Source: a virus. From it: DNA of 31,877 nucleotides. A program made the position numbers and the translations under genes. The notes under the pieces were generated by a model. That model searched no databases. It was not told where the DNA came from and saw only the letters and a program-made list of their open reading frames with translations. Shown here piece after piece: positions 5,971-15,808 of the stretch; positions within the stretch are counted from its first letter, which is position 1, and the number at the start of each line of letters is the position of its first letter. The stretch spans positions 1-31,877 of the IMG/VR virus record IMGVR_UViG_3300037247_000117. One strand, given 5' to 3'.

Positions 5971-6375
5971 ATGTCGGTTGTAAGTGATTTTGTTGCGAAT
6001 ATTGATAGTAACGATTTGAGCGAGTGGCTTATATCGCTCGACCTTTCACAAGACCCGGAAATGCACGACGATACCCGTATGTCATCGACTACTGATACAC
6101 GGGCAAGCGACGCGGGTCTAATCGTCGGGACGTTGACCTGCACGTTCAAGCAAATCTACGCCAGCGTTGACGCTGTTCTCGCTCCGTTGGTAAAAGCAGC
6201 AGCGTTTCCCGTTATCGTAAGTCCGGCATCGGGCGCGGTTGGCGCAAGCAACCCGTACCGGACAGGCGATATGGTTATCAGCAGCTATAACCCGCTATCA
6301 GGCACCGTCGGCGATCATGACGTGTGTACCGTAGTGTTCGCGAGCGCAGGGACAATGACAAGGACGGTAGTATAA
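5971..6375 (+). CDS. Second tail-tube-like protein (134 aa)
   Basis: A strong AAGGAGGT site at 5955-5962 precedes the ATG at 5971. The protein shares with the gene before it the arrangement LSEWLISLDLS, then DDTRMSSTTDTR and a glycine turn followed by GTLTCTFKQIY, which suggests a common tail-tube fold and an old duplication. It lacks the extra C-terminal domain of its neighbour. It may be a minor tube or tail-completion subunit, or itself the main tube protein with the longer one as decoration. No cysteine pairs or membrane segments are present. Confidence 0.7.
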   Translation: MSVVSDFVANIDSNDLSEWLISLDLSQDPEMHDDTRMSSTTDTRASDAGLIVGTLTCTFKQIYASVDAVLAPLVKAAAFPVIVSPASGAVGASNPYRTGDMVISSYNPLSGTVGDHDVCTVVFASAGTMTRTVV

Positions 6376-6398
6376 AAGAAAACAAGGGAGACAAAACA

Positions 6399-6785
6399 AT
6401 GGCGTTGATGAACAAAGACGACATCCTGTCGCAAGACGACCGGGAATTCAAAGATGTGTTTGTGCCACAGTGGGCGGGCACGGTTAGGCTGAAAGGACTG
6501 TCAGCAAAGGGCAAAGATGTCCTGACTCTAAAGACCGGCGAAATGCGAGACGGCGATTGTGACATCAATTTCCGCGCGTTGCTGGTATCGTTGTGCGCTG
6601 TGGACAAAGAGGGCAATCGTCTATTCAGTTCGGGCGATATAGAAGCTCTTGGCGAGAAGAACAGCGACGCTATGGAGACTCTGTACGAAGCGGCTGGCAA
6701 GTTGTCAGGCCTGCTCGACGAAAGCGAACAGGAAGCAGTTGAGGCTTTCGACGACGCCCAGGACGACGATTTGAGTTCCGACTAG
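6399..6785 (+). CDS. Tail assembly chaperone, gpG-like (128 aa)
   Basis: The start at 6399 follows AAGGGAGA (6384-6391), the ribosome binding site style of this phage; longer in-frame starts upstream run into the preceding gene and are unlikely. The protein is acidic and helical, with ILSQDDREFKDVFVPQWAG and LCAVDKEGNRLFSSGDIEAL, a pattern typical of chaperones placed between the tube and tape measure genes. It ends with a very acidic tail. Known members bind the tape measure protein during tail assembly. A second chaperone part follows in the -1 frame. Confidence 0.78.
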   Translation: MALMNKDDILSQDDREFKDVFVPQWAGTVRLKGLSAKGKDVLTLKTGEMRDGDCDINFRALLVSLCAVDKEGNRLFSSGDIEALGEKNSDAMETLYEAAGKLSGLLDESEQEAVEAFDDAQDDDLSSD

Positions 6786-7003
6786 CTCTTGCCCTGGGCA
6801 TGACACATGCTGAAATGTTGGGCAGGATGTCCAGCAAAGAACTGACCGAATGGTTTGCGTTCAACCATCTCGAACCGTTTGGCGAAGTTCATGCCGATAT
6901 GCGGTCTGCTTTGATAGCGTATAAGGTCGGGACGATAGCACACGCTTTTGGCGGCAAGGGACCGCCGCCTAAGTTCAGCGACTATAGAACATGCGAGGAC
7001 TGA
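6743..7003 (+). CDS. Tail assembly chaperone second part, gpT / DUF4035-like, probably made by -1 frameshift
   Basis: This frame is offset by -1 from the preceding chaperone and is open from 6743, overlapping that gene by about 43 bases. An ATG occurs at 6800, but no Shine-Dalgarno sequence precedes it. The family-like sequence begins before that ATG: LALALG leads into MTHAEMLGRMSSKELTEWFAF and LEPFGEVHADMRSALIA, the pattern of gpT-like proteins. This argues that ribosomes enter from the upstream frame, as in lambda G/GT. No canonical X-XXY-YYZ slippery heptamer is visible in the overlap, so the exact site is open. The alternative is independent translation from 6800. Confidence 0.6.
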   Translation, partial: GFRRRPGRRFEFRLALALGMTHAEMLGRMSSKELTEWFAFNHLEPFGEVHADMRSALIAYKVGTIAHAFGGKGPPPKFSDYRTCED

Positions 7004-8957: not shown

Positions 8958-9320
8958 ATGGCAGCCGGCGACGCATTTACATGGACGCCTAATAAGGTTA
9001 AGACGGACGAACCCGAGTTCCCTGTCGTCGTTACAGAAGCGGAATCGTTTAAGAAAGTAACCGCGCTTATCGACGTCGATGAGAATATGCGGTGGCAGCT
9101 TTTGTTTAAGAACGCATCGCTCGCAGACAGGAATGCTATCCTTGCGCATTTCAGAGATCAAAGCGGCGGATACTTTCCGTTCTCCTGGACTACCGTACCC
9201 GCGTATGTTGAAGCCGGAGCTAATCAGACGGTGCGATATAAGATCGAAGGCGGGTATAACGAGACGCCGCTAGATCATTATAAGTTCCGGCTTGTGATAA
9301 CGTTGGAGTTGGTGGTGTAA
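8958..9320 (+). CDS. Minor tail protein in the gpM position (120 aa)
   Basis: The gene lies three bases after the tape measure gene and one base overlaps the gpL-like gene, matching the tape measure, M, L order of lambda-type tail tips. Visible features are an N-terminal beta segment (FTWTPNKVKTDEPEF), a central helix (LADRNAILAHFRDQSGG), YFPFSWTTVPAYVE, and a final beta pair ending in VITLELVV. A distal tail role is supported by order and by the F-x-W-x-x-P pattern of minor tail proteins, but the match is weak. The TAATG junction suggests coupling. Confidence 0.68.
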   Translation: MAAGDAFTWTPNKVKTDEPEFPVVVTEAESFKKVTALIDVDENMRWQLLFKNASLADRNAILAHFRDQSGGYFPFSWTTVPAYVEAGANQTVRYKIEGGYNETPLDHYKFRLVITLELVV

Positions 9321-11461
9321 TGAAGGAACTTGAACAGGCTGTTCTCGATGAGATGTTCGCTAGTCAGATGCGTCCCGTTAATCTCATTACGTTTGAACTC
9401 GACGGGCTGACATTGCGGTACGCGGCCAGCAAAACAAACGTCACGTTTGACGGCGACACATACACCGCGAAAGCGTTTGAATATGGCGACGTGCTACAGA
9501 CGTCTGAAGGACAGATAGGACGCGTCTCTGTTCGCATGGACAATGTAGGCGCAACGTTAAGCGCGTTCGCCGCAAGCTATGTATTTGCGGGCCGCACGAT
9601 GTTCATATATAAAGTGTACCGGGACGCGCTTGGAGCCGGGGCGAATTTTGAAGAGGTGTTTCGCGGCAAGATGGAAGCCCCCCGGTTTACTAACACGTTG
9701 ATGGAACTGACCGCTACCGCTGGCGCATCGTTGACCCGCAGATACCCACATAGAATTTATCAACGGTTATGTCCGCATACATTTGGCGCAGGGGATTGCG
9801 CTCGTGAATTAGAGGGCGAGGTGAGCGGGCAAGGGTCAATCGGAAATGAGAAGTTTGAGTTCGTTGTTGGTTCTGAAGCCACAGATATTGGCGCGTATAG
9901 CGGCACGGTCACAGATGGGACAAGTACAAAGATATTTGATGCCGACGATTTTATTGGACATGAGAATGATGCGTGGAATGGTAGGCAGTTGACGTGGATA
10001 TCAGGCGTTGACAATGAAGGCTTGTTTGAAAACATCGACGACTTTGATTCAACGAACGGGCGGTTTACGTTTACGGTAGGATTTGTGGGCCCGCCGGGGA
10101 CGGGCGATCTGTTTGTAATCGGCGCGGTGTTCGTGGGCTATAGAATACAATGGAAGACCGGCAACAATGCCGGAGAGTTTGCGCAGATAAGTTCGTTCGT
10201 GCCACATCATAACGCGTTCGGCGGCGATGCGTTCTTTGCCGTGGACGCTGGCGACGCGTTCACCGCAGACATCGAGGCAGGCGACACGTTTATAATCAGC
10301 AACGCCGATCTAGAACGGGCTCCGTTAAAACAATCTGATACGTTGAGCGCGACAAGCTCAGATGATGTCACGGCCATTGACAACACCCGGTCGGAAGCAG
10401 ACGATTTCTGGAACTTTGGGAAACTGACTATTACGAATGGCGCGGTTACGGAGACGCGGACGGTCGTGACTTTTGTGAACAGCACAAGCACGTTCACGGT
10501 AGACCTGCCGTATTCGTTTACGCCTACCAGCGGCGACAGCTATTCTGTAATAGCGGGATGTGATAAATCATGGGTGGCATGTCAGGCCCGGGACGTTGAC
10601 GAGCTTATGGCAAACGAAGGGTTTGAGGCTGCCGACTTACGTGTATGGTCGTATGTCAACGGTCTTATTGATTCGCTTGAAAGTGAAATCAGCAAAACAA
10701 TCGGGTCTGACACTACGAAGACTACTGGCAACGGATATGTAGACGATGAGTTTAACGGTAGAGAACTCAGGTTCACAAGTCCGAACAGCACAAACTTTCG
10801 ACTGTCGAGAGATGTTTCAGACTTCGATGCGCAAGCAGGAAAAGGGAAATTTACAACAGTTGCCTTTCCAGATTTTATGGGGTTGCGGGCTACTGGGTCC
10901 AGCACACGAGACGCCCCATATGATGTTGAATTCGTTGCCACTGACAATACGATCACCCGCGACAACCTAACGTATACGGTTGAGGCCGCCGCAAAACAAG
11001 GCGGGGCCGTAGGCTTGAACATAACGGCGGGCGCGGCGCAAGATTTTGAACTGGGACAAACGGTGTTATCAGGCTACGAAGAACGGGACGCGCTCACCGC
11101 CACGGCATCTATCAACATCGACAATGCGGCTACCGTCACGAGCATCACATTAAAAATATACGTCATGTACGATGGGAGTTCGCGGGCGTGGGAACTGTTA
11201 GGCTCCGACTCATTCAACGTTGCGACAAAAGGCAGTTGGCAGACGGCGACGATTTCAGCTATCGAAACGGACGGAGCAAAGGTTCTAAAGATTATTAAGT
11301 TTGCTATCGAAGGCGTGGCATTGAATGGCACGGTCTTTATTGACGACTGTTCAATGACGCGGAACGTTGTGCCATACGGGCCGGTTGCGGACAATACAGA
11401 AAACTTCGGCGGATTTATACACATCGGTCGAGAGGGAGACATGCCCCTTGTTGGGATCTAA
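9320..11461 (+). CDS. Tail tip protein, gpL / DUF2163-like core with large inserted modules (713 aa)
   Basis: Residues 1-160 form the gpL-like N-terminal part, ending in YPHRIYQRLCPHTFGAGDC. Cys151-x8-Cys160 and Cys414-x6-Cys421 (in IAGCDKSWVACQAR) have the spacing of the four cysteines that, as I recall, hold an iron-sulfur cluster in lambda gpL. The family's closing motif occurs only at the end, as NTENFGGFIHIG (692-703). Between these core pieces sit two blocks: about 250 residues of repeated beta modules (near 192-410), and a carbohydrate-binding-like region (about 431-682, from NEGFEAADLRVW to VFIDDCSMT) with another module nested in it. The core acts at the tail tip; the inserts probably face outward. 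Usual relatives are about 200-300 residues. Confidence 0.8.
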   Translation: MKELEQAVLDEMFASQMRPVNLITFELDGLTLRYAASKTNVTFDGDTYTAKAFEYGDVLQTSEGQIGRVSVRMDNVGATLSAFAASYVFAGRTMFIYKVYRDALGAGANFEEVFRGKMEAPRFTNTLMELTATAGASLTRRYPHRIYQRLCPHTFGAGDCARELEGEVSGQGSIGNEKFEFVVGSEATDIGAYSGTVTDGTSTKIFDADDFIGHENDAWNGRQLTWISGVDNEGLFENIDDFDSTNGRFTFTVGFVGPPGTGDLFVIGAVFVGYRIQWKTGNNAGEFAQISSFVPHHNAFGGDAFFAVDAGDAFTADIEAGDTFIISNADLERAPLKQSDTLSATSSDDVTAIDNTRSEADDFWNFGKLTITNGAVTETRTVVTFVNSTSTFTVDLPYSFTPTSGDSYSVIAGCDKSWVACQARDVDELMANEGFEAADLRVWSYVNGLIDSLESEISKTIGSDTTKTTGNGYVDDEFNGRELRFTSPNSTNFRLSRDVSDFDAQAGKGKFTTVAFPDFMGLRATGSSTRDAPYDVEFVATDNTITRDNLTYTVEAAAKQGGAVGLNITAGAAQDFELGQTVLSGYEERDALTATASINIDNAATVTSITLKIYVMYDGSSRAWELLGSDSFNVATKGSWQTATISAIETDGAKVLKIIKFAIEGVALNGTVFIDDCSMTRNVVPYGPVADNTENFGGFIHIGREGDMPLVGI

Positions 11462-11921
11462 AAAGAAAAAAGAGCAGAAACCCAAAAAGGTTAAGAGGAC
11501 ATACGAAGTGCGCCGGGTGGCTACGCCGCCGGATGTCGTCATGGTATCGAGGTATAAGGATAACTTTGACGAACTCACAACCAGTATGTCCCGAGACGAA
11601 ATGATTCAGCTTTTAATGAGCGGGCTGACTGTGCCGAATTCAGTAGTAGCATGGGGTGTGTGGGATAACGCCAACAGATTGCGAGGTTATCTGGTTGCGC
11701 TCAATACTATCTACCCGCCGTTGTCGCAAGGCATCTCTATTATATACGCACATTCAACAGCTCCAACATCGGCGCAACGGAAAGTCTTGGTAGAGGTCGA
11801 GACGTGGGCGAAAGAGTTGGGCGCGAACAGTATAATGATTCACACCAAGCACCCCGGTCTATTGTTCGCAAAATTTGGGTTTGTCGACAGCCACATGGTA
11901 ACGATGGAAAAACAGATATGA
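11448..11921 (+). CDS. GNAT-like N-acetyltransferase fold protein (about 157 aa)
   Basis: No good ATG exists near the start. TTG at 11448, overlapping the end of the tip gene and preceded by GAGGGAG (11432-11438), is the best start. A very basic N-terminus (KKKKEQKPKKVKR) precedes a domain with a central VVAWGVWDNANRLRGYLVAL strand pair and a C-terminal AKELGANSIMIHTKH, then LLFAKFGFV, which fits the last strand-helix-strand of GNAT acetyltransferases. The acetyl-CoA loop (Q/RxxGxG/A) is not clearly present, so the fold may be kept without activity. It sits in the gpK position between the gpL-like and gpJ-like genes and ends with an ATGA overlap. Confidence 0.6.
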   Translation: MLGSKKKKEQKPKKVKRTYEVRRVATPPDVVMVSRYKDNFDELTTSMSRDEMIQLLMSGLTVPNSVVAWGVWDNANRLRGYLVALNTIYPPLSQGISIIYAHSTAPTSAQRKVLVEVETWAKELGANSIMIHTKHPGLLFAKFGFVDSHMVTMEKQI

Positions 11922-14900
11922 AGCTGTTGCGCATACTTGTAGCCGCGCTCGTTCTGTGGTTCATACTGTTTGTGCCGGGCGCAGAGAAAGAGTCAGAGCC
12001 GCCCGATGTATATATGGCAGTGCCGACGCTTATCGTTGCCGGCATAGTGATCACAGCCCAACTCTTGTATACGTTTGCGAACGACACCATTCTGCTCATA
12101 ACGTCGCCGCTATTATACCTGTTGAGGAAATCACAAGAACAAGACCTACAAGACGGTAATACATATTTCGGTGACACGATCCGAGACACAACGTCAAACG
12201 AAACGCCGATACCGTTAGCGGTCGGCAGCGTTCGTCTCGGCGCAAACAAGGTCCGTATGAGCGAACCGGGCAAGACCAAGCGCGTGTTCGATCTCACGGT
12301 ATGCCAAGGCGAAATCGAAAGTTTCGATCAGACATGGGTCAACGATATTTTGTGGGAAGACCTGAAAGGCAATGCAACGAATGACGCCCATACTAAAATA
12401 GAATATCTTGGGACAAAATATCAACAGGCGGACTTCCGTTTCGATGCAACGACAGAGCAGGCGGAATCATACCGGGGCATAGCGTATGTTGCGGCGCGGG
12501 TAAAGGCCACGCCACAGATGGGCGGCGACCCCACGTTCGTATTCCAGATCAAGGGGAAAAAGATTCCTACGTTGGCGGCCCTTTCGGTCGATGCGTTTAC
12601 CAACACCCCTGCGGTGATCTTGCGTTACATCATAAGCGAACTCGAAGGGAAGTCAGACGCCGAGATTGACACCGCTGAATTCCAGGTGTTAGAAACCTAT
12701 TGTGACACCGTGCCGACGGACGGGACTGAAGCTCGATACCAGTTCGACTATGTGTTCGATGTCAGATCGTCATTGAACGATATGAAAAAGCTGTTATGGG
12801 AATCGTTTAACGGTCGTACCATATGGAGTCAGGGCAAGATCAAACCCGTATGGGAAAGGGACTTGAACTACGGGACCGGCACGGCTACGGCTGTCACGGT
12901 CGGGAAAGAGAAATACGAGTTCACGGACGGTGCTTTGGCCGGTGTTCATTCCGACAACCATTTCATCGGCTATGTGCTCAAGTGGACGTCCGGTAACAAC
13001 GCCAATGAACAGGCAGAGATACTTGAGTATGTCGGCGCGTCGGGCCTCATAACGTGCGCTGTAGGCGCGTTCACTGCCGACATAGTGGTAACGGATGCCT
13101 ATGAACTTGTCGCCTGTTACACGTTCACGCTAGACAATATCGTCCGGGGTACGTTTGGGTTCGCCCAACAGACGACGCCCAACATTGTGCGGGTCCACTA
13201 TATCAATGGCGAACGCGACTGGAAAAAAGATAGCGTTGAGATTCGGGACGAAGACCTGATAGATAGACACGGCGAAATTCTGGATGAACGGAATCTATGG
13301 TATATTACGCGACCGGAAGTTGCCCGACGTCGAGCTCAATTCATATTTGATAAGGGCCGGGTGATGGATTACCTGACAGAGTTCACCGGGTTCACGTCGG
13401 CGGCCAAGCTGGAAGTGTTTGACGTCGTGGCTGTGTCACACGTAACGCCGGGGTGGACTTTGAAACGGTTCTTAGTACGCGAAAAGTTCCAAGACTCGTT
13501 AGGCCGTCCGCGTGTAAGTCTGGAAGCATACGACAGCAACATCTATCACGACCGGGAAGCCACAAAACAAACCGGCTACTATCCCGACGTGGTATCGCAG
13601 TTTGAACCTACCAGCATCGAAGACATTACATTGACTGAAGACTTTGAAATTCAGTCCGGCTACTACTATCCGATAGTACGCATCACGTTTACCCTGCCAG
13701 CCGGAAACGATTATCGGTTTTGGGCATACGCCGAGATATGGGTTGCGACCGATAGGGACGGCGTGCCCACGGACGCTGACTATATCATGCGAGAGACATC
13801 GAGTGACGGCACGACGGGCGCGGTGATATCGGGGTTGCAAGCAGAGTTCGAGGGCGGCGACACAGTCTATGTCAAGATACTGAGCGTCAATGTAAACGGC
13901 GCGAAAGAAGAACTCGAAGACGTTGACGCGACTACCATCACGCTAGTGGCCTACGCGCCGATAACACCGCCGACGTTCACGGCGGGATGCTGGACTACAG
14001 CAGTCATCGGGGCTGGCGATAGCAGCATTACGGTTACAAATACCAACGACTTCCCGGCCAGTGGGACAGCTCGGATACACGACCCCGCTGGCATAGATGA
14101 GTTCACGTTCAGCGGCAAGACAGCGACAACTTTCACGGGGATACCCGGTGGGGGGGATGACGCTGTGACGGCGCATACAACCATCGGGTTGCCCGTCACG
14201 CCCGCCAATACGAAACACATTGAGATCATGTCGAGTGACGGCGAACTGCATTTCTATGGGGACCGTGGCGACACCACTATAGAAGAGATTGCAACAATAG
14301 GAATAAAAACAAGCGGTGGTGATAAGGTAATAGGCAGCTTCGGTTCCGGTGATACGTCCCATATAGCGATACAAGCCGAGTCTTCTAGTGCCGATGCTAT
14401 TGTTGGGACTTCGTCTACAAACAACGGGGTTGCTGGCATAACTAACGGTCTTGTCGCTGGAAAGTCCGGCGTTATTGGCATATCTAATTTGGACGGGTAC
14501 GGCGTTACGGGTTTTATAAGCGATGAAGCTGATGTATCTGCTGTCCGCGGGTGGATAGGTAGTGCCACGTTGCCGGATTTGGTTAATGGTTCTTGTTTTG
14601 TCGCTCAGCATTCTGGTGCGGGTGACGCAACGTTTGATTTTTGGTTATCTATCCCAAACGTGCGCTGGCGAATGGGAATCGACAACTCCGTCGCAGGCGA
14701 TCCGTTCGTGCTGTCCACAGACCACGACCTTGCAAACGCCGTGTTGACCGTAACGACTGCGGGCGCGTTTACGCTTGGCGGGGATGTTAGCATCACCGGG
14801 AATTTAGGAGTAGGCATAGCGATTCCAGAGACCAGACTACACGTTGCAGAGGGAACTTTTGCCGACATCCCAATGTTTGAAAGAACCGGGGCTAATACAA

Positions 14901-15808
14901 ATGCTATATGGGCTTCTGGGAAAATAAGGTCTACGCACACTGGGAACATGGGCGATGACTTTGGAACTGGTTTATTCTTTTACATACAAGATGACGCAGC
15001 CACCGAAAACGTAATTGCTAGTATATCGGCGACACGGGAAGGGGCCGATGATAGCGGCAAACTTGAACTGCAAACAGTTAGTGCAGGAGCTAGGTCAACA
15101 AAGGTAACTATCCTGCCTGGCGGCAACGTAGGCATACTTACTGCGGACCCGAGAACTCTACTAGATGTTAACGGAATCGCTACCATAGAAGACACCCTGA
15201 TTCTTTCTAAGACCTCCGGCAAAGGAATAAAAGTTGATACCACAACGCCGACGTTTGGGTGGCGCGACCTATTAGGAGACGTGTTTGCGCGGAACACGGG
15301 GGCAAGCAAACCGACGTTTGCGGTCTATCAAGACACATTAAGAGAGTTTCAGTTTGCCGCAGGCGACGAAGAGTATTTTAAGTTTCACATCCCACACGAC
15401 TACGTTGCGGGCACGGATGTCTTTCTACACATTCATTGGTCGCACACGGGGGCTCTTGTAACCGGGGGCACGATCACGTTTGAAGTCGAAACTACTTATG
15501 CGAAGGGGCATAACCAAGCGGCGTTCCACGGATCGGCCGACGGAACATTTGTTGGCACCGCGTCAACGACTCAATACCAGCACATAATCAGTGAAGTCCA
15601 ACTTTCCGATCCGACGCCTGTAGGCTTAGAGATTGAGACAGGCGATCTAGAACCGGACGGGGTAATTATAATGCGTATATTATTGGATGCTAACGCCATA
15701 ACCGTATCGGGCGGTGGTGTGCCGGACCCATTCATTCATTTCGTAGACATCCACTATCAATCCACGAACATCGGGACGAAGGATAAGGTTCCTGATTTCT
15801 ATAGTTAG
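11918..15808 (+). CDS. Central tail tip / fibre protein, gpJ-like, with N-terminal membrane-like segments (1296 aa)
   Basis: The ATG at 11918 overlaps the preceding stop. Hydrophobic segments occupy about residues 3-19, 33-52 and 57-69, like a fused gpI-type start. A gpJ-like tip region follows, beginning near PIPLAVGSVRLGANKV (97-112). A module shared with the gpL-like protein interrupts it near 320-404 (YVLKWTSGNNANEQAEILEY). After RRAQFIFDKGRVMDYL and the end of the tip core come a fibronectin-like domain (about 583-680) and a beta-rich shaft with VGIAIPETRLHV and VGILTADPRTLLDV. The C-terminal domain starts near 1114 (WRDLLGDVFARN, then FHIPHDY) and is the probable receptor-binding end. 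Confidence 0.88.
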   Translation: MKLLRILVAALVLWFILFVPGAEKESEPPDVYMAVPTLIVAGIVITAQLLYTFANDTILLITSPLLYLLRKSQEQDLQDGNTYFGDTIRDTTSNETPIPLAVGSVRLGANKVRMSEPGKTKRVFDLTVCQGEIESFDQTWVNDILWEDLKGNATNDAHTKIEYLGTKYQQADFRFDATTEQAESYRGIAYVAARVKATPQMGGDPTFVFQIKGKKIPTLAALSVDAFTNTPAVILRYIISELEGKSDAEIDTAEFQVLETYCDTVPTDGTEARYQFDYVFDVRSSLNDMKKLLWESFNGRTIWSQGKIKPVWERDLNYGTGTATAVTVGKEKYEFTDGALAGVHSDNHFIGYVLKWTSGNNANEQAEILEYVGASGLITCAVGAFTADIVVTDAYELVACYTFTLDNIVRGTFGFAQQTTPNIVRVHYINGERDWKKDSVEIRDEDLIDRHGEILDERNLWYITRPEVARRRAQFIFDKGRVMDYLTEFTGFTSAAKLEVFDVVAVSHVTPGWTLKRFLVREKFQDSLGRPRVSLEAYDSNIYHDREATKQTGYYPDVVSQFEPTSIEDITLTEDFEIQSGYYYPIVRITFTLPAGNDYRFWAYAEIWVATDRDGVPTDADYIMRETSSDGTTGAVISGLQAEFEGGDTVYVKILSVNVNGAKEELEDVDATTITLVAYAPITPPTFTAGCWTTAVIGAGDSSITVTNTNDFPASGTARIHDPAGIDEFTFSGKTATTFTGIPGGGDDAVTAHTTIGLPVTPANTKHIEIMSSDGELHFYGDRGDTTIEEIATIGIKTSGGDKVIGSFGSGDTSHIAIQAESSSADAIVGTSSTNNGVAGITNGLVAGKSGVIGISNLDGYGVTGFISDEADVSAVRGWIGSATLPDLVNGSCFVAQHSGAGDATFDFWLSIPNVRWRMGIDNSVAGDPFVLSTDHDLANAVLTVTTAGAFTLGGDVSITGNLGVGIAIPETRLHVAEGTFADIPMFERTGANTNAIWASGKIRSTHTGNMGDDFGTGLFFYIQDDAATENVIASISATREGADDSGKLELQTVSAGARSTKVTILPGGNVGILTADPRTLLDVNGIATIEDTLILSKTSGKGIKVDTTTPTFGWRDLLGDVFARNTGASKPTFAVYQDTLREFQFAAGDEEYFKFHIPHDYVAGTDVFLHIHWSHTGALVTGGTITFEVETTYAKGHNQAAFHGSADGTFVGTASTTQYQHIISEVQLSDPTPVGLEIETGDLEPDGVIIMRILLDANAITVSGGGVPDPFIHFVDIHYQSTNIGTKDKVPDFYS

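Follow-up and report, generated by a model that had tools for sequence, protein, structure and literature searches.

The window, i.e. the whole 31,877-base virus record, carries a siphophage tail module with the major tail protein, a chaperone, the tape measure protein, a protein at the gpM position, the hub and gpJ, and the tail module is followed by a lysis amidase and a RecE/RecT recombination region. The features around the hub gene are:

8958..9320, + strand: distal tail protein at the gpM position (33% identity, 5e-9, to the gene just upstream of the hub of locus L091; weak match to phrog_15525)
9320..11461, + strand: hub, a gpL/DUF2163-family baseplate hub protein of 713 aa with two inserts
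11804..15808, + strand: gpJ/megatron-type central hub-fibre protein (phrog_31, 5.6e-28; PF13550)
12875-13111: OB-like module in gpJ, residues 358-436 (OB profile, full-sequence E 0.0012-0.0017)

The ORF at 11367-11921, between the hub and gpJ, encodes a protein that by eye resembles a GNAT-type acetyltransferase; neither Pfam nor PHROGs gave it a convincing match. Positions 838-1575, immediately before the head-tail connector genes, encode a protein of 245 aa that contains a lectin domain of the LamG/concanavalin type (Laminin_G_3, 5.2e-9) and on this domain match is likely to be a further virion protein with predicted glycan binding.

The 713-residue protein is the baseplate hub of the gpL / RcGTA gp13 / JBD30 gp50 family (PF09931 + PF09356, DUF2163, phrog_778). 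The Pfam search matched PF09356 (Phage_BR0599, second Cys pair) to residues 363-424 above the cut-off (5.5e-9) and PF09931 (attachment domain) to residues 28-160 just below it (4.9e-5, 24 bits, cut-off 26 bits), with L091 scoring above the cut-off; in PHROGs the protein falls into phrog_778, tail assembly protein (7e-23). The PDB profile matches agree, as a 37-member family profile identified the solved hubs of Chi (9e-63), JBD30 (5e-41), RcGTA (1.7e-28), R4C (7e-23) and lambda (gpL, 8iyk_L, 2e-7). The gene lies between those of the distal tail protein and gpJ/megatron, as is typical of the family, and the protein ends with the closing N[FY]GG clip (NFGG at 695). Relatives of the hub came only via alignment-based searches: neither whole-protein tblastn against phages and plasmids nor single-protein scans of viral and genome contigs returned any, gpJ-based scans for relatives found nothing, and the scan with the tape measure protein gave one unhelpful contig (L010). 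The hub is built from the following parts:

9320..9745, + strand: attachment domain (HDI-like), residues 1-142 (pLDDT mostly >90 for 1-134; Foldseek matches to lambda gpL and JBD30 gp50)
9770..9799, + strand: first cysteine pair, Cys151-x8-Cys160 (invariant in 37 sequences)
9812..10339, + strand: insert 1, approximately residues 165-340, from Cys pair 1 to the ancestral OB domain (absent from L091 and canonical members)
9887..10120, + strand: extra OB-domain copy (module 1, residues 190-267) within insert 1
10127..10291, + strand: module 2, residues 270-324, within insert 1, related to gpJ residues 387-433
10340..10558, + strand: ancestral OB domain, residues 341-413 (pLDDT ~94)
10559..10582, + strand: second cysteine pair, Cys414-x6-Cys421 (inside the PF09356 match)
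10589..11371, + strand: insert 2, residues 424-684, from CQA to the clip PYGPVADN
10736..10870, + strand: weak OB-like module at the start of insert 2, residues 473-517
10883..11368, + strand: CBM-like jelly roll (low confidence), approximately residues 522-683
11372..11458, + strand: clip and closing motif YGPVADNTENFGGFIHIG

Cysteines occur at positions 151, 160, 414, 421 and 677. As the preliminary description had stated, the first four form a C-x8-C and a C-x6-C pair with 253 residues in between, and the second block, put there at about 250 residues before NFGG, is confirmed as 273 residues from Cys421 to Asn695. In the alignment of 37 family members C151, C160, C421, G413, N692 and G698 are invariant, while C414 and N695 are conserved in at least 90%. 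The spacings of lambda gpL that had been given for comparison proved exact (Cys173-x8-Cys182-x22-Cys205-x6-Cys212 in J02459), but lambda gpL was rejected as a yardstick and its 22 residues as the baseline, since in the nearer family the pairs are already ~80 residues apart. Canonical members have ~75-90 residues there, and N[FY]GG follows their last cysteine after 7-10 residues, or after 14 in the clade to which the window hub belongs. The ion-binding domain of the RcGTA hub is discontinuous, with residues 143-167 and 250-263 arranged around the OB domain 168-249 (PMC7296036), that of the R4C hub is likewise split into 142-161 and 244-266 around an OB domain (PMC10276861), and JBD30 gp50 has its cysteines at 147, 156, 238 and 245 (PMC11445458). 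The OB domain is termed 'oligosaccharide-binding', and sugar binding is deduced in the literature from fold similarity (PMC7296036, PMC10276861). As one OB domain of ~80 residues normally lies between the pairs in RcGTA, R4C, Chi, JBD30 and YuA, ~80 of the 253 residues in the window hub are ancestral. Threading a domain between the two pairs is thus the ordinary family design, present in RcGTA, R4C, JBD30 and canonical members and missing from lambda, and not an unusual arrangement as had been supposed; L156 and L198 even carry larger cargo there. Judged by alignment, the real excess in the window hub amounts to about 175 + 260 residues (~430 extra) at two points of the core, and what is unusual about it is insert 2, which separates Cys414/421 from the closing motif.

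The boundaries of both inserts are given by L091 (IMG/VR 3300040801_000653, 6001-6873), a 290-residue hub that lacks them and is flanked by relatives of the same neighbours, i.e. the gpM-position protein upstream (see above) and gpJ downstream (27.5%, 4e-11). It aligns to the window hub in three blocks: residues 1-206 to 1-220 (1e-36), 184-266 to 343-425, including the ancestral OB domain (38.6% identity, 1.7e-13), and 260-285 to 675-703, the clip (65%, 8e-8). The clade motif after the second pair runs uninterrupted in L091 (CQANNNYGPIADNKNNFGG), while in the window ~260 residues split it between CQA and PYGPVADN, and no other family member found has an insert at this point. These alignments show that no core part is missing from the window hub: attachment domain, all four cluster cysteines, OB domain and clip follow one another in the same order as in L091. 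Together with the profile and PDB matches, this comparison bears out the central claim of the preliminary description, namely a gpL-like hub in which the halves of the metal site are separated by large inserted domains; these domains are probably of a carbohydrate-binding type.

Insert 1 had been described as repeated beta modules, which holds for its first part only. Residues 190-267 (module 1) score 18.1 bits in the clade OB profile, insert 1 as a whole scores 16.7 bits, and none of 500 shuffles exceeded 8.1 bits; the Smith-Waterman (SW) comparison with module 3 gives z = 6.3, and the hub profile passes through the OB domain twice. At the sequence level, module 1 is thereby shown to be a genuine second OB domain of the family's type, one OB copy having been duplicated. 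Module 2 was considered as another OB copy and rejected (7.0 bits in the broad model, 0.8 in the clade model); instead it strongly matches the phage's own gpJ (SW score 88, z = 13.7, 0/1000 shuffles). The gpJ segment 358-436, which spans the module 2-like residues 387-433, is itself a weak OB match. The hub and gpJ, two tail-tip genes of the same phage, therefore have a module in common, and the DNA similarity between them is limited to a short patch, which indicates that the sharing is old. Searches with the inserts only returned nothing useful, leaving both without a database match.

For insert 2 the predictions are of lower confidence. Residues 473-517 resemble module 1 (SW z = 7.2), score only 8.8 bits in the enriched OB profile and show no similarity to module 3. 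The remainder may be a CBM-like jelly roll, a low-confidence prediction from two structure models with pLDDT of about 50-70: in Foldseek searches both the full model and the isolated insert 2 match CBM4 1gui (6.4e-5 and 2.4e-5, respectively) and CBM16/22. Insert 2 folded alone has a mean pLDDT of 47.5. No part of the window matches PF02018 even with the E-value limit set at 10, insert 2 alone matches no CBM family profile, and its alignment with the CBM of L156 was poor and was set aside. In the full model, residues 136-153 and 155-318 fall below pLDDT 50, and Cys151/160 and the clip are not placed (the structure-model alignment rows were made without annotated phage records).

Among relatives, inserts recur at site 1, the stretch from Cys pair 1 to the OB domain, and include tandem OB, CBM_4_9 and LamG-like domains. 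L150 has two tandem OB domains with 159 residues between the pairs, a parallel to module 1 of the window; L156 and L165 carry CBM_4_9 (2e-9), with 404 residues between the pairs in L156; L198 has ~566 extra residues and L190 a short insert. The prophage hubs L188, L189, L196 and L197 have closely similar flanks and differing jelly-roll-like cargo, and together with L195, which has none, they form a presence/absence and swap series. The jelly-roll or LamG-like labels of L188, L189, L196, L197, L198 and L178 were read by eye from the sequence, and Pfam found no CBM in L188, L196 or L198. The position between the second Cys pair and the clip (site 2) is occupied in none of L150, L156/L165, L188/L189, L196, L197, L198, nor in any relative found among the ~174 distinct hub-profile matches. 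In the loci read, the hub profile matched 194 frames (174 distinct), 182 of which cross the second Cys pair and the clip as one block, and the remaining twelve comprise the window hub, hubs that are truncated or partial, and long non-hub proteins with an OB module, so that the window alone is split at site 2; such site frequencies are not estimates, because length played a part in the choice of loci and the closing motif served as a selection criterion in some scans. Most matches in the surveys at phylum level (398 genomes) and class level (385 genomes) are of ordinary length. Site 2 may be a new insertion site.

Several further proteins in these loci depart from the simple hub. L178 (4768-6366) has apparent LamG-like cargo inside the hub attachment domain, a possible third insertion site. 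Long proteins with an OB-type module occur in the same loci as hub genes (L094 4577-7831, L097 1541-4771, L176 2308-7323). L007 (4001-6811, ctLpZ231) encodes a 936-aa protein with a gpL-like attachment domain at the start followed by a large hub-like body, possibly a fused gpL-gpJ.

The reading that we consider probable starts from a window hub that keeps the attachment domain, four cysteines, OB domain and clip in the order of L091 and to which two blocks were added, and holds that the cysteines refold around the cluster while the inserts project and bind glycans. The added blocks are ~175 residues ahead of the OB domain, comprising a second OB copy and a module found also in gpJ, and ~260 residues downstream of Cys414/421, with a putative CBM-like jelly roll at their end. 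The four cysteines presumably still meet around the predicted iron-sulfur cluster, as their strict conservation and the solved relatives suggest, folding back together as in those structures. The tail tip would hold three copies of the hub, their inserts pointing outward, so that several extra sugar-binding-type domains would be displayed around it. The inserts might then bind surface glycans weakly and multivalently, holding and orienting the virion on the host before the gpJ fibre commits it. A glycan contact in early adsorption has been proposed for RcGTA and R4C (PMC7296036, PMC10276861), and in lambda the cluster domain lies at the surface (PMC10721106).

Among the alternatives, the one that survives best, though we regard it as unlikely, is that the inserts are structural and do not bind glycans but prop the hub on a neighbour, be it gpJ, the distal tail protein or side fibres. 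OB and Ig-like folds serve also as spacers in phage tails, and module 2, resembling gpJ as it does, could mediate hub-gpJ packing. However, the cargo at site 1 is varied and lectin-like and differs between the closely similar hubs L188, L196 and L197, with L195 lacking the jelly roll, and such variation fits a host-facing role better than a fixed contact. Loss of the metal core, with the cysteines left as relics or disulfides and the hub serving now only as an adhesin scaffold, appears improbable: the region between the pairs is not resolved in the model and gpL homologues without the cluster exist (PMC13243795), but all four cysteines are retained at exact x8/x6 spacing together with G413, N692 and G698, and lost sites usually decay. 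An assembly or frame artefact joining unrelated sequence within the hub gene would agree with a site-2 insert found in no other member and with inserts lacking database matches, but is very improbable given the unbroken 713-codon frame, the equal GC and GC3 of inserts and core, the homology between module 1 and the ancestral OB domain, and the preservation of CQA and YGPVADN at the junctions.

The window hub can be compared with known systems. RcGTA gp13 (6TBA) and the R4C hub (8GTC) share its attachment domain, discontinuous ion-binding domain, OB domain between the Cys pairs and clip (PMC7296036, PMC10276861), but have a single OB domain of ~82 residues and an uninterrupted clip, whereas in the window hub OB-type modules have been added and 260 residues are inserted ahead of the clip. 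JBD30 gp50 (8RK3), which has the same x8/x6 spacing (PMC11445458), and Chi gp27 (8VJH) are the best profile and fold matches; unlike the window hub, they are ~272 residues long and free of inserts. Lambda gpL (8IYK) shares the HDI attachment domain and the C-x8-C ... C-x6-C iron-sulfur site (PMC10721106), but has no OB domain and only 22 residues between the pairs. The nearest precedent is that of the 'evolved' Dit and Tal proteins with BppA-type CBMs, in which CBMs sit in loops of a conserved tail-tip core, as in the window; the BppA CBM resembles 1GUI/1GU3, structures matched also by the models of insert 2 (PMC7291167). 'Evolved' Dit/Tal are best documented in phages of Gram-positive hosts, while in the window the carrier is an iron-sulfur hub instead. 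The window hub thus belongs to a known family and decorates the tail tip by a known strategy, in an extreme form. A more far-reaching proposal, which we put forward tentatively as a possibility against the balance of our expectation, is that site 2 is an undescribed permissive site, with adhesin domains on both chain crossings of a small metal-bound core and modules exchanged within one phage by the hub gene and gpJ.

The hub joins Dit and Tal as a tail-tip protein displaying exchangeable, putative sugar-binding modules, and the series at site 1 (one OB, two OB, CBM, LamG-like) constitutes a natural experiment on host adsorption. The iron-sulfur site of these hubs, strictly conserved yet functionally unexplained, may serve to staple the exit and re-entry of the chain around foreign domains.
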